Source: Catenulispora acidiphila DSM 44928 (GTDB lineage Bacteria > Actinomycetota > Actinomycetes > Streptomycetales > Catenulisporaceae). Taken from it: a DNA stretch of 64,000 bases. Each line of letters begins with the position of its first letter. The stretch's first letter is position 1. Below are positions 46,018-50,607 of this stretch, in pieces. Both the position numbers and the translations under genes were made by a program. The stretch is taken from positions 6,944,001-7,008,000 of the forward strand of contig NC_013131.1 in NCBI RefSeq assembly GCF_000024025.1, given 5' to 3'. The notes beneath the pieces were generated by a model. It ran no database searches. It had not been told where the DNA came from and worked only from the letters and a program-made list of their open reading frames with translations.

Positions 46018-46824
46018 TCACATCCGGGCCCGCAGCACGTCCACCTCGCAGCCCGGCGCCGCCGGATCGAACCCGTGCTCGGCCAGCCACCGGACGGCCA
46101 GCAGGCAGCGCACCGACCACCAGCCGCGGACCACGTCGAGGTCCACGTCGGTGCCGTAGCCGGCGAGCAGTTCGGCGAGGCGGTCCTCGTGGCCGAGGGT
46201 GAAGGTGGCGATGTCGTACAGGGCGTCGCCCCGCGCCGCCTCGGACCAGTCGATGACGCCGGTGACCCGGTCGTGCTCGACGAAGACGTGGGCGATCTGC
46301 AGGTCGCCGTGGATGAACGCCGGCTTCCAGGGCCGGAGCGCCGCCTCGGCGACCTGCCGGTTGCGGGTGACCAGGTCGGCGGGCAGGACGCCGTCGGCGA
46401 TCAGCCGCGCGCATTCGGCGTCCAGGTCGGCCGCGAGCGCGTCGGGGTTCGGGCCGGGCCAGGGCGGCAGCGGTGCTTCGTGCAGCGTCCGCATGGCTTC
46501 GCCGGCTGCCGCCCACGCCGCCGGCGACCCGGTCGAGCGCCCGCCGAGACGGCCCAGCGGCTCGCCCGGGAGCGCGGCGAGCGCCAGCACCGGCGGCTCG
46601 CACCACAGGACCTCCGGGGTCGGGACCGGCGCGAGCGCCATGGCCTGGACCTCGACGGCGGCGTGCGCCGGGTCGGCGTCGACCTTCAGGAACACCTCGC
46701 CGACGCGCAGGGTCGCGCGCTCGCTGTGCGCGACGACGATCTGGACCTCGGGATTCGGCGCCTTCTCGGGGTTCACGGTCTTCGCGGGGTTCACGGTCTT
46801 CGCGGGGTCCAGCGCCTCGGGCAT
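46018..46824 (-). CDS. Aminoglycoside phosphotransferase (APH)-family kinase-like protein
   Basis: 268 residues from ATG 46824, overlapping the MarR stop (ATGA). APH fold: ATLRVGEVFLKVDADPAHAA with the ATP lysine, ALAALPGEPLGRLGG, catalytic FIHGDLQIAHVFVEHD (HGD followed by H instead of the usual N) and metal-binding VIDWSEAARGDALYDIATF. The N terminus contains a short tandem repeat (KTVNPAKTVNPEK, from an 18-base DNA duplication around 46,768-46,807). Substrate unknown: antibiotics, sugars or amino alcohols are all possible. Confidence 0.85.
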   Translation of the reverse strand: MPEALDPAKTVNPAKTVNPEKAPNPEVQIVVAHSERATLRVGEVFLKVDADPAHAAVEVQAMALAPVPTPEVLWCEPPVLALAALPGEPLGRLGGRSTGSPAAWAAAGEAMRTLHEAPLPPWPGPNPDALAADLDAECARLIADGVLPADLVTRNRQVAEAALRPWKPAFIHGDLQIAHVFVEHDRVTGVIDWSEAARGDALYDIATFTLGHEDRLAELLAGYGTDVDLDVVRGWWSVRCLLAVRWLAEHGFDPAAPGCEVDVLRARM

Positions 46825-47264
46825 CAGAACGGTCCCTCCTCGACGAAGCGCCGCAGTCCTCTGGCAAAGGCCTCGGCCTCCCCCGGCGGCCACGCCGCCA
46901 GCGAGGCGGAGACCCGCTCGACGAAGCGGCCGCGCATCTGCTCCACCGCCGCGGCGCCGGCGTCGGTGAGCACCAGCAGCACCGAGCGCCGGTCGGCGGG
47001 ATCGGGCTCGCGCCGGACCAGCCCTGCGGCCTCCAGCCGCGAGGCGTGGCGGCTCACCCCCGAGCGGTCCAGCCCGACCACCGCGGCCAGGTCGGCGGCG
47101 TTGCGCGGGCCGGTCCGGGCCAGGCCGCTGAGCACCGGGTAGGCGTTCTCGTCGAGGCCGTCGGCGATGCCCTCGACCAGGGCGGCGTAGAGCCCGGAGC
47201 GGGTGCTGCGCTGGATCAGGACGCCGAAGGATGCGGCGATCTCCCGTCCGATGTCATCGTCCAT
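46824..47264 (-). CDS. MarR-family transcriptional regulator
   Basis: 146 residues from ATG 47264. Winged helix: YPVLSGLARTGPRNAADLAA, VVGLDRSGVSRHASRLEAAG, LVRREPDPADRRSVLLVLTD, flanked by dimerisation helices. It is divergent from an NTF2-like gene, and two palindromes in between are likely its operators. Downstream it is coupled to the APH-like gene. MarR regulators usually lose DNA binding when bound to phenolic or drug-like ligands. Confidence 0.92.
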   Translation of the reverse strand: MDDDIGREIAASFGVLIQRSTRSGLYAALVEGIADGLDENAYPVLSGLARTGPRNAADLAAVVGLDRSGVSRHASRLEAAGLVRREPDPADRRSVLLVLTDAGAAAVEQMRGRFVERVSASLAAWPPGEAEAFARGLRRFVEEGPF

Positions 47265-47274
47265 GGCTCCACAG

Positions 47275-47295
47275 TAGCGTGCATCGCGCACGCAT
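47275..47295. promoter_or_regulatory. Candidate MarR operator 1 (imperfect palindrome)
   Basis: TAGCGTGCAT-C-GCGCACGCAT centred at 47285, ten bases upstream of the MarR ATG. The right half is identical to that of operator 2; the left half keeps the GCGTGC core. Binding here would block transcription or translation start of the MarR gene. Confidence 0.7.
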
Positions 47296-47319
47296 TGTCT
47301 GCTACTGTTCGGAGCATGA

Positions 47320-47342
47320 GATGCGTGCGCCGCGCACGCATC
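47320..47342. promoter_or_regulatory. Candidate MarR operator 2 (perfect 23-base palindrome)
   Basis: Arms GATGCGTGCGC and GCGCACGCATC, 11 bp each around one central C at 47331, 42 bases before the NTF2-like ATG. It shares its half site with operator 1, whose centre is 46 bases away. Confidence 0.8.
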
Positions 47343-47383
47343 ACTTCGCCTGACATTCCTGACATCACTGAGGGAGCATCACC

Positions 47384-47776
47384 ATGTCCACGACCATCGC
47401 CGCCGCCCTGACCGACCTGCTGCTCACCCCCGGCCTGACGCTGGAGGAGGCCCTGGACCGGCACTTCGACCCGGCGTACCGGCAGCGCACCGACGGCGTC
47501 TGGGCCGACCGCGCCGGGTTCGCCGAGCACATCGCCCACCTGCGCGGCGTCGTCGCCGACGGAACGATCCGGGTCCACGACGAGCTCGGCGAGGGCGCCG
47601 CCTACGCCGAGCGGCACACCGTCGACGTCGTCAAGACCGACGGCTCGACCGCCTCCCACGAGGTCTACGTCTTCGCCGAGCGCGCCGCCGACGGCCGCTT
47701 CCTGCGGCTGGAGGAGGTCACGCTGATGCTGTCCGGCAGCGACGCCGACCGCGGCCTGGGCAGCGCGCGCGGCTGA
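47384..47776 (+). CDS. NTF2/SnoaL-like protein
   Basis: 130 residues with the small alpha+beta barrel of SnoaL-like proteins: a helical LTLEEALDRHFDPAYRQRTD start, GFAEHIAHLRGVVADGTIRV, ERHTVDVVKTDGSTASHEVY and FAERAADGRFLRLEEVTLML. GGGAG lies upstream of the ATG. It is probably the target of the divergent MarR regulator. Enzyme or ligand-binding role is not determined. Confidence 0.85.
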   Translation: MSTTIAAALTDLLLTPGLTLEEALDRHFDPAYRQRTDGVWADRAGFAEHIAHLRGVVADGTIRVHDELGEGAAYAERHTVDVVKTDGSTASHEVYVFAERAADGRFLRLEEVTLMLSGSDADRGLGSARG

Positions 47777-47808: not shown

Positions 47809-48012
47809 CTAGGACATCTCGCGCGGCGTCATCAACCGGATGTGGTTGCCGGAGGGGTCGCGGAAGGAGGAGTCGCGGCCGTACATCTCCTCGCTCTCGC
47901 CGAAGGCGCGCCAGAACTCCCGCGAGAAGTGCGCCCGCGACAGACTCGCCGCCGCCGCAAGGTCGGCATAGCCCGAGTCGCCAAGGTCTTTGGCCCGCTG
48001 CAGGTGGCGCGC
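47809..48012 (-). pseudogene. Remnant of an AraC-family regulator fused to the tail of a VOC protein
   Basis: The minus strand encodes ARHLQRAKDLGDSGYADLAA, ASLSRAHFSREFWRAFGES, the first helix-turn-helix of an AraC regulator, then switches without a break at about 47,895 to EEMYGRDSSFRDPSGNHIRL and MTPREMS, the C-terminal end of a vicinal-oxygen-chelate (glyoxalase-fold) protein. No start codon with a ribosome site precedes it, and both parent proteins lack most of their length. A deletion between neighbouring AraC and VOC genes explains this. Confidence 0.75.
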
Positions 48013-48075
48013 GGGGGCGACGGGAGCCGCGGGCTCTGACGTGCGCGGTCCGAGCGCCGCCGATAGCGTGCTGTC

Positions 48076-50607
48076 ATGGTCGACGACGGCGCTGAGCAGC
48101 GGAGCGCGGAGCCCGGCCACGGGATGGGCCCGGACTCCCTGATCCGGGTCCACGACGCCACCGAGCACAATCTGCGCCACGTCGACCTGGCCATCCCGCG
48201 CGACCGGGTCGTGGCGTTCACCGGGGTGTCGGGGTCGGGCAAGTCCTCGCTGGCGTTCGCGACCATCTACGCCGAGGCGCAGCGCCGCTACCTGGAATCG
48301 GTGGCGCCGTACGCGCGCCGCCTGATCGAGCAGGCCGGTGCGCCGCGGGTCGGGGGTATCAGCGGTCTGCCACCGGCGGTCGCGCTGCGGCAGCAGTACG
48401 GCGCGGGCAGCGCGCGCTCGAGCGTCGGGACCGTCAGCCGGGTCTCGAACGTGCTGCGCATGCTCTACTCGCGCGCCGGAACGTATCCGCCGGGCGCCGA
48501 ACCGGTCGACTCCGACTGGTTCTCGCCGAACACCGCGGTCGGCGCCTGCCCGACCTGCCACGGGCTCGGGCGGCGCTACACCGTCGAGGAGGACCGGCTG
48601 GTCGGCGATCCCGCGCTGAGCATCCGGGGCGGGGCGGTCGCCGCGTGGCCCGGGGCGTGGCAGGGGAAGAACTATCGGGACATCCTCGGCGAGCTGGGGA
48701 TCGACATCGACGCGCCGTTCCGGACACTGCCCGCCGAGCGGCGGCACTGGCTGCTGACCACCGAGGAGCAGCCGGTCGTCACTGTGCATCCGGTGCGGGA
48801 GGCGCATCGGATCACGCGTCCTTATCAGGGCACATACATGTCGCCGCGCAGCTGGGTGCTGCACACGTATGCCACCACCAAGAGCGCCTCGCTGCGGGCG
48901 AAGGCGGCGTCCTTCCTGACCGAGGAGCCGTGCCCGACGTGCGAGGGACGGCGCCTGAATCCCTTCGCGCTGAGCGTCACCGTCGCAGGGGTCGATATCG
49001 CTCGGGCGACCGCGCTCCCGCTCACCGACCTGGCCGATCTACTGCGCCGAGCCCGCGTTCACCCCGACACCGCCGCGCTGTCACCGGAACGCCGTCAGGC
49101 TGCCGAAGCCCTGATCGGCAACCTCGAGGAGCACATCAAAACCCTGACGGAACTCGGTCTCGGCTATCTCGGGACCGACCGCACCACCGCGACACTGTCC
49201 GGCGGTGAGTTCCAGCGGCTGCATCTGGCGACGCAACTCGGCAGCGGTTTGTTCGGGGTCTTATACGTCCTGGACGAGCCCTCCGCCGGGCTGCACCCCG
49301 CCGACACCGAGCTGCTGTTGACCGCGTTGAAACGCTTACGCGCCGCCGGGAATTCGGTGTTCGTGGTCGAACACAATCCGCGGGTCATCGCCGATGCCGA
49401 CTGGATCGTGGACCTCGGGCCCGGGGCGGGGACGCATGGCGGGCGCGTGCTGTACAGCGGTCCGGGGGCGGGGTTGGAGGGCGTCGCCGAGTCGGCCACC
49501 GCGCGGTATCTGTTCGGGAACACGCCGAGCCTTCGGCCGGCGAGCGTCCGCACACCGTCCTCCTGGCTGACGTTGTACGACGTCACGCGCCACAACCTGG
49601 ACCGCCTGACCGTCCGTTTCCCGCTCGGCACGCTGACCGCGGTCACCGGCGTCTCCGGCTCCGGCAAGTCGACGCTGGTCGGGCAGGTGCTGGCGGCGAC
49701 GATCCGGGACCACCTCGGGACACCCGAGAGCACCGAGAAGGACACCGACGGCTCCGAGGACGAAGCCGCCGCCCTGGACGACGACCGCATCGTCGCCATT
49801 CCCAAGGCCGACGGGCTGGACGCCGTGCAGCGCCTGGTCCAGGTGGATCAGAAGCCGATCGGGCGGACGCCGCGTTCGAACCTGGCGACGTACACCGGCC
49901 TGTTCGACGCCGTCCGCAAACTCTTCGCGGCCCAACCACTGGCGAAGGAGCGCGGCTACACCGCCAGCCGCTTCAGCTTCAACCTGCCCGACGGCCGCTG
50001 CCCGAACTGTCAGGGCGAGGGGGTGGTGAGCGTCGAACTCCTTTTCCTGCCTACGGAATCCGCGCCGTGTCCGGTCTGCCACGGGGCGAGGTACAACCCT
50101 GAGACGCTTCAGGTCCTGGTCGACGGCAAGTCGGTCGCGGACGTGCTCGCGCTGAGCGTCGAGGAGTCACTGGATTTCCTCGACCAACTGCCGACCGCGC
50201 ACCGCATCCTGCGCCTGCTCGACGACATCGGATTGGGCTACCTCACCCTCGGGCAGAGCGCGACGACCCTGTCCGGCGGCGAGGCGCAGCGGATCAAGCT
50301 GGTCAGCGAGCTGCATCGCGCGCGCCGCGGCCACACCCTGTACCTGCTGGACGAGCCGACCAGCGGGCTGCACCCCGCCGACGCCGACCTGTTGCTGGCG
50401 CGGTTGCAGGAGCTGGTCGACCAGGGCAACACGGTCGTGATCGTCGAGCACGACCTGCGCGTCGCGGCGGCCGCGGACTGGCTGCTGGACCTCGGTCCCG
50501 GCGCCGGCGCGGACGGCGGGCGGATCGTCGCGCAAGGGACGCCGGCCGAAGTATCCAGTGGCGGATCCGGGCTCGCGGCGCGATTCTTGGCTGCGCACAC
50601 CTCTTAG
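48076..50607 (+). CDS. UvrA-like ABC ATPase (class II UvrA / drug-resistance type)
   Basis: 843 residues, about 110 shorter than UvrA, lacking most of the UvrB-binding region. Two ABC halves: Walker A GVSGSGKSSLAF and GVSGSGKSTLVG; signature LSGGEFQRLHLATQL and LSGGEAQRIKLVSEL; Walker B VLYVLDEPSAGLHP and LYLLDEPTSGLHP. Zinc-finger pairs CPTCHGLG, CPTCEG, CPNCQGEG and CPVCHGA are present. Such proteins act in DNA damage or intercalating-drug tolerance (DrrC type). Two TTA codons at 49261 and 49336 are unusual for this high-GC genome. Confidence 0.9.
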   Translation: MVDDGAEQRSAEPGHGMGPDSLIRVHDATEHNLRHVDLAIPRDRVVAFTGVSGSGKSSLAFATIYAEAQRRYLESVAPYARRLIEQAGAPRVGGISGLPPAVALRQQYGAGSARSSVGTVSRVSNVLRMLYSRAGTYPPGAEPVDSDWFSPNTAVGACPTCHGLGRRYTVEEDRLVGDPALSIRGGAVAAWPGAWQGKNYRDILGELGIDIDAPFRTLPAERRHWLLTTEEQPVVTVHPVREAHRITRPYQGTYMSPRSWVLHTYATTKSASLRAKAASFLTEEPCPTCEGRRLNPFALSVTVAGVDIARATALPLTDLADLLRRARVHPDTAALSPERRQAAEALIGNLEEHIKTLTELGLGYLGTDRTTATLSGGEFQRLHLATQLGSGLFGVLYVLDEPSAGLHPADTELLLTALKRLRAAGNSVFVVEHNPRVIADADWIVDLGPGAGTHGGRVLYSGPGAGLEGVAESATARYLFGNTPSLRPASVRTPSSWLTLYDVTRHNLDRLTVRFPLGTLTAVTGVSGSGKSTLVGQVLAATIRDHLGTPESTEKDTDGSEDEAAALDDDRIVAIPKADGLDAVQRLVQVDQKPIGRTPRSNLATYTGLFDAVRKLFAAQPLAKERGYTASRFSFNLPDGRCPNCQGEGVVSVELLFLPTESAPCPVCHGARYNPETLQVLVDGKSVADVLALSVEESLDFLDQLPTAHRILRLLDDIGLGYLTLGQSATTLSGGEAQRIKLVSELHRARRGHTLYLLDEPTSGLHPADADLLLARLQELVDQGNTVVIVEHDLRVAAAADWLLDLGPGAGADGGRIVAQGTPAEVSSGGSGLAARFLAAHTS

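Follow-up and report, generated by a model that had tools for sequence, protein, structure and literature searches.

The regulator gene marR and the gene for a small NTF2/SnoaL-like protein stand back to back in Catenulispora acidiphila, and the 119-bp stretch between them holds two palindromes. The question that this locus raises is whether these are operators of the neighbouring MarR protein and, if they are, which promoters and which genes each of them serves. Judging from their sequence, their conservation and their placing, we consider it very probable that both are operators of this MarR, which would most likely keep marR and its divergent NTF2/SnoaL-like neighbour repressed until released by a small ligand. 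The features concerned, numbered within the window (the whole 64-kb stretch of DNA that was analysed), are the following.

46018-46824, minus strand: APH-family kinase (Pfam APH, PF01636, 76.2 bits, cut-off 23.2)
46824-47264, minus strand: marR, encoding a MarR-family winged-helix regulator of 146 amino acids (Pfam MarR_2)
47271-47276, minus strand: putative marR -10 box, TACTGT (its first base 9 bp from the operator 1 centre; 80 of 82 loci have TAnnnT here)
47274-47296, no strand: candidate operator 1 (marR-proximal), an imperfect palindrome with core 47277-47293 and centre 47285 (from the sequence and repeats D7 and I13)
47303-47308, plus strand: putative NTF2-like -10 box, TACTGT (18 bp from the centre of operator 1; 74 of 82 loci have a TAnnnT-type box at +17 or +18)
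47320-47342, no strand: candidate operator 2, a perfect 23-bp palindrome with 11-bp arms and centre 47331 (from the sequence)
47370-47376: ribosome-binding-like GAGGGAG before the NTF2-like gene
47384-47776, plus strand: NTF2/SnoaL-like protein of 130 amino acids (SnoaL_2 profile, predicted fold)

Operator 2 reads GATGCGTGCGC-C-GCGCACGCATC and is, as the original prediction described it, a perfect palindrome; no other perfect odd palindrome in the window is as long, for the runners-up have arms of 9 bp, as do the longest perfect even palindromes. The imperfect palindrome predicted around 47285 was likewise found in place, its core reading GCGTGC-ATCGC-GCACGC, and the core common to both operators is GCGTGC-N5-GCACGC. 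Each also contains GCGCACGCAT, at 47286-47295 and 47332-47341, as had been foreseen. The two were said to share one half site, which is correct in that the same half-site sequence occurs in both operators, yet it is not one physical half site. When the intergenic stretch was dinucleotide-shuffled 20,000 times, no shuffle gave a 16/16 match to the motif and none gave two separate matches of at least 14/16, the motif used for scoring having itself been drawn from this intergenic region and its relatives. Across the organism's own genome (10,467,782 bases, one contig), GCGTGCN5GCACGC is present at two places, both in the marR/NTF2-like intergenic region, and a reversed-pattern control is also present at two; the count of cores is therefore ordinary, and the improbable part is that they lie 46 bp apart. 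If one mismatch is tolerated, shuffled versions of the whole window yield 2.2 matches on average (two or more in 69 of 100), so the bare window count is uninformative. A genome search for more copies of the half site, which had been proposed along with the prediction, returned 27 copies of GCGCACGCAT, three of them in the intergenic region (two of these make up the perfect palindrome), against 10 for the reversed control.

Conservation was examined from both sides of the pair. MarR orthologues with upstream DNA (n = 19, L002-L020, 56-65% identical) carry two or three sites in 15 cases and one in four. To avoid selection by marR, we used the NTF2-like protein as query against 297 genomes from a related family (Streptomycetaceae by inference, as it contains Kitasatospora and Streptacidiphilus genomes), 88 of which matched; 97 of the 117 matches were used, nine duplicates of places already included and 11 partial or weak matches (E 7.7e-27 to 5.6e-9) being left out. 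In all 133 loci were scanned, which after removal of 10 with identical sequence around the gene gave 123 distinct NTF2-like loci, 94 from the 297-genome search and 29 from other genomes (mostly first reached via marR) or the window. These were grouped into 82 whose adjacent marR is divergent and starts 60-260 bp ahead of the NTF2-like gene, 21 close homologues with no marR next to them and 16 paralogues, with four weak or short ones (L180, L181, L281 and L288) ungrouped, and a match of 12/16 or better was called a site.

Every one of the 82 divergent loci, the window included, has at least two sites (two in 76, three in six) and has one in the place of operator 1; loci picked by the NTF2-like protein alone, in the 297-genome search, have paired sites in 61 of 61 divergent cases. 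The 82 include some weak members, namely L249 with a marR match of 32 residues, L264 with a split match, and L280 and L287 (49% identity) with two sites of just 12/16. In three of the three-site loci (L230, L236 and L262) the extra 12/16 site lies inside marR and is probably due to chance. Three loci (L166, L235 and L243) have a third operator in the space separating marR from the NTF2-like gene, at a distance of 32 bp from the marR-proximal one. Identity at positions -7 to -4 and +4 to +8 is 99-100% in either operator, which is partly expected of sites picked by motif. As background, 372,102 bases of other loci held 55 windows of at least 12/16 and no pair 33-50 bp apart. None of the 16 paralogues without marR (53-62% identity; L263, L265-L279) has a site; their genomes often also hold a copy that does. 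The motif pair accompanies the marR/NTF2-like pair in all 82 divergent pairs, and sites are absent from all 16 distant paralogues without marR, which argues for the predicted reading of the palindromes as MarR operators.

Loci in which the two genes have come apart give evidence on which operators belong to which gene. Among the 21 close NTF2-like homologues without adjacent marR (at least 62% identity), 14 have two sites, two have one (L225, L247) and five have none (L169, L178, L234, L261, L286); L169, L178 and L286 are extra copies, and the same genomes hold another NTF2-like copy with sites. We searched for marR (E <= 1e-20) in 16 genomes with an NTF2-like gene without adjacent marR, leaving out G091 (L242), where marR is 878 bp away, and G053 (L170) and G059 (L169), both of which hold marR (L014, L020). 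An orthologue was present in 14 of the 16, at 17 places; at this threshold none was found in G276 and G281, and the NTF2-like genes of these two (L261, L234) are site-less. At 11 of the 17 places marR is either separated from the NTF2-like gene or arranged in tandem with it and has one site, 21-36 bp before residue 1, with a score of 11-14 of 16, and four of these 11 have further score-11 windows farther off or overlapping the site. Another four places have two sites and adjoin an NTF2-like gene, either intact or truncated, and L300 and L305 have two sites with no NTF2-like gene found beside marR. The sites thus mostly stay with each gene after a split and, as a rule, the separated target keeps two operators and the separated regulator one. 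Such natural splits, in which one site goes with the regulator and two with the target, are variants from which the part played by each operator can be read. The genome G040 has a marR (62%) with one site and no NTF2-like gene; the regulator can therefore exist without an NTF2-like target, which speaks against tight pairing. Several genomes have one-mismatch operator-like sites away from both marR and the NTF2-like gene.

The range extends to plasmids. The NTF2-like protein has matches in 28 plasmid-collection records, and in the seven that we looked at the site pair is present at four of four loci with a divergent marR: the Streptomyces plasmids L309 and L311, and plasmids of Prescottella equi and Rhodococcus qingshengii (Nocardiaceae, another order), where a divergent MarR gene goes with two sites 40 and 41 bp apart. 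The homologues without adjacent marR, in Streptomyces (L306), Pantoea (L308) and Klebsiella (L312), have no site of at least 12/16; the Pantoea locus has a different divergent regulator, and the Klebsiella locus has no annotated adjacent regulator. Identity of the two enterobacterial homologues is about 50%, and the Klebsiella 'plasmid' record, at 5.37 Mb, looks like a mislabelled chromosome.

According to the original prediction one operator sits at the marR start and the other at the NTF2-like promoter. These positions hold, with the refinement that the marR-proximal operator appears positioned for both promoters and the second falls immediately downstream of the putative -10 box of the NTF2-like gene. 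A simple scan of 47100-47500 found no -35/-10 pair of sigma-70 type and no terminator, and the promoters were therefore placed by a loose rule, from conserved TAnnnT boxes. For the NTF2-like box the rule chose whichever TAnnnT came last in the interval between the two gene-nearest operators, a looser criterion serving as fallback, and in three-site loci the marR-side and gene-side operators used in different measurements may differ. The marR start codon is at 47264, 21 bp from the centre of operator 1; counted along the marR strand from that centre, 80 of 82 loci have TAnnnT at +9 to +14, and 81 have a start-type codon (ATG, GTG or TTG) at +21 or +22. Boxes off the modal position number two of 82 for marR and eight of 82 for the NTF2-like gene. 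With six bases between the putative marR -10 box and the start codon, the marR transcript would probably be leaderless.

Operator 1 is placed between the two divergent -10 boxes, covering the spacer and -10 edge of the marR promoter as well as the -35 region of the NTF2-like gene. Because its distances to both boxes are near-fixed, it is nearly fixed to both promoters, and from this geometry it probably serves both and not marR alone. Operator 2 follows directly after the putative NTF2-like -10 box, across the start region, and its centre falls 13 to 25 bp past the end of that box. The spacing between operator centres runs from 35 to 48 bp over 96 loci (commonest 41, 36, 38 and 37), by which a fixed helical phase between the operators is rejected; given this variable spacing, a strictly phased co-operative complex is unlikely. 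A short out-of-frame reading frame (47316-47411) opens about one base past the expected start site of the NTF2-like gene, crosses operator 2 and enters the gene; it probably arose by chance. In the switch that we propose, a MarR dimer on operator 1 would cover the spacer and -10 edge of the marR promoter and, simultaneously, the -35 region on the NTF2-like side, another dimer, sitting on operator 2, would obstruct the NTF2-like start region, and a small ligand would lift MarR off its operators; operator 1 would then be the shared element, and operator 2 an extra lock on the target gene.

Of the proteins involved, the marR product matches PF12802 (MarR_2) with 56.3 bits (cut-off 27) and PF01047 with 46.9 bits (cut-off 24.6), and has relatives in the PDB by sequence. 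The MarR protein of the window is without cysteine and no column in an alignment of 14 proteins is an invariant cysteine; this argues against an OhrR-type thiol sensor, whose hallmark is a conserved reactive cysteine. Among named relatives the nearest is Catenulispora rubra, at 85% for marR and 93% for the AMP-ligase. The label 'NTF2-like' proved right at the level of predicted fold, the AlphaFold2 model having a mean pLDDT of 92.6 and its best PDB matches including AclR, IdmH, SnoaL2 and other NTF2-fold proteins (E from 1.9e-6, TM about 0.6-0.7; 2gey, E 1.9e-6; SnoaL2 8r2b, E 4.2e-6, TM 0.69). By sequence the NTF2-like protein of the window has no Pfam match at E 0.001 and alone reaches 16.9 bits with the SnoaL_2 profile, under the cut-off of 27; every one of the 16 aligned members of its family matches the profile at E <= 1, at best 1.2e-9.

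The switch had been predicted to control an APH-like kinase along with the NTF2-like protein. The NTF2-like part of this is supported, in that the motif pair travels with the marR/NTF2-like pair, but the kinase falls outside the conserved switch. Its start overlaps the marR stop (ATGA) and it is plausibly co-transcribed with marR in the Catenulispora acidiphila genome, to judge from this arrangement. Here it sits between marR and the AMP-ligase gene, and in five of six congener loci (L090-L094; not L096) marR is followed directly by a convergent AMP-ligase gene. Among 305 loci (many of which reach just ~1 kb past marR), no other genome had marR and kinase side by side, so the kinase is not part of the conserved switch. 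In the same 305 loci a relative of the kinase (E up to 1e-6) occurs outside its own genome only at L097/L191, one place of genome G036, on the strand opposite to a more distant marR. Downstream of the NTF2-like gene and on the same strand, 48076-50607 encodes a UvrA-like protein of 843 amino acids with a UvrA DNA-binding domain. Second UvrA-like proteins are known from drug-resistance contexts. In the interval before it, 47809-48075 has no Pfam match, and 47809-48020 on the minus strand resembles, by eye, a remnant of an AraC-type helix-turn-helix fused to a glyoxalase-like end.

Other explanations of the palindromes have to be set against repression by the neighbouring MarR. GC-rich DNA can be expected to hold about two such cores per genome by chance, a number that the reversed control equals, but two cores only 46 bp apart, the lack of any 16/16 match or 14/16 pair in 20,000 shuffles and sites conserved in 82 of 82 loci speak against chance; this conservation refutes the reading as chance palindromes, to which we give practically no weight. 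It is improbable that the palindromes bind some other regulator in place of the neighbouring MarR. Their size would suit other dimeric regulators too and the genomes may hold further sites, yet the sites track marR, including one site at marR genes away from the target, and they are missing both from the NTF2-like genes of G276 and G281, genomes in which no marR orthologue was found, and (at 12/16 or better) from the plasmid-collection homologues L306, L308 and L312, which have no marR adjacent.

Operator 2, a perfect inverted repeat downstream of a putative -10 box, would be transcribed, and might as such fold, within the NTF2-like mRNA, into a 5'-leader hairpin that acts by attenuation or translation control, with no role as a DNA operator. 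Against this the motif recurs in operator 1, which would be outside that mRNA, the core stem positions are near invariant without covariation (in sites picked by motif), no terminator-like site appeared in the simple scan of 47100-47500, and the distance of operator 2 to the -10 box varies by 12 bp; the hairpin is very improbable and was rejected on these points. Some MarR-family proteins activate. Activation of the NTF2-like gene from operator 1, instead of repression, would agree with this and with the nearly fixed distance of operator 1 to the NTF2-like -10 box, but a site over the -35 region and another over the start region would be typical positions for repression, and SCO3205 and CrtR, which have similar layouts, are described as repressors in the available text of the two reports (PMC3737563, PMC5401885); activation thus seems unlikely to us.

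Repression by the neighbouring MarR from both operators remains our preferred reading, and we lean, with some reserve, towards a broader one. The locus may represent an undescribed, widely spread actinomycete MarR/NTF2-like regulon, also on large plasmids, in which one operator would be common to back-to-back promoters whose -10 boxes keep near-fixed distances from its centre (9 bp and 17-18 bp), a second operator, of free spacing, would help to sandwich the target promoter, and the operators would stay with each gene after a split, two with the target and one with the regulator. Its breadth within one family (297 genomes) comes to 61 divergent pairs among 94 distinct NTF2-like loci. For an uncharacterised MarR/NTF2-like pair this provides a precise, testable candidate operator, and a reporter built on the two operators could help to identify the ligand and what the NTF2-like protein does.

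In the open-licence literature we found no report of the GCGTGC-N5-GCACGC motif or of the marR/NTF2-like pair, and for the string TGCGTGCG with Streptomyces no MarR-operator paper by title. SnoaL/SnoaL2-type NTF2-fold proteins of actinomycetes resemble the window protein in predicted fold and through its weak family match, and differ from it in sequence, as it is 11-21% identical to its 20 best structural matches. The closest likeness in layout is to SCO3205/SCO3204 of Streptomyces coelicolor, where, in the text of the report available to us (PMC3737563), two non-overlapping operators were predicted by conservation and shown to bind, with KD of 1.3 and 2.4 nM. Both systems have a MarR-family regulator divergent from a small enzyme-like gene, an intergenic region of 119 nt and two operators. 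They differ in the operator consensus, which is TTnAAnnnTCAA for SCO3205 and GCGTGC-N5-GCACGC here, so that an operator of SCO3205 type was rejected; in the target, a class III extradiol dioxygenase-like protein in SCO3204 and an NTF2/SnoaL-like protein here; and in that binding was measured for the SCO3205 operators (PMC3737563), whereas those described here are candidates from sequence and conservation. CrtR/crtE of Corynebacterium glutamicum, from the part of the report available (PMC5401885), likewise has a divergent MarR-type regulator that represses itself and its neighbour, a regulator transcript reported as leaderless and a very small regulon, but probably one TTAA-containing site, a carotenoid operon as target and, by the title, isoprenoid pyrophosphates as ligand. 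By analogy with these systems, the locus appears to follow a known plan, that of SCO3204/SCO3205, with another motif, and would be a switch of an ordinary kind.
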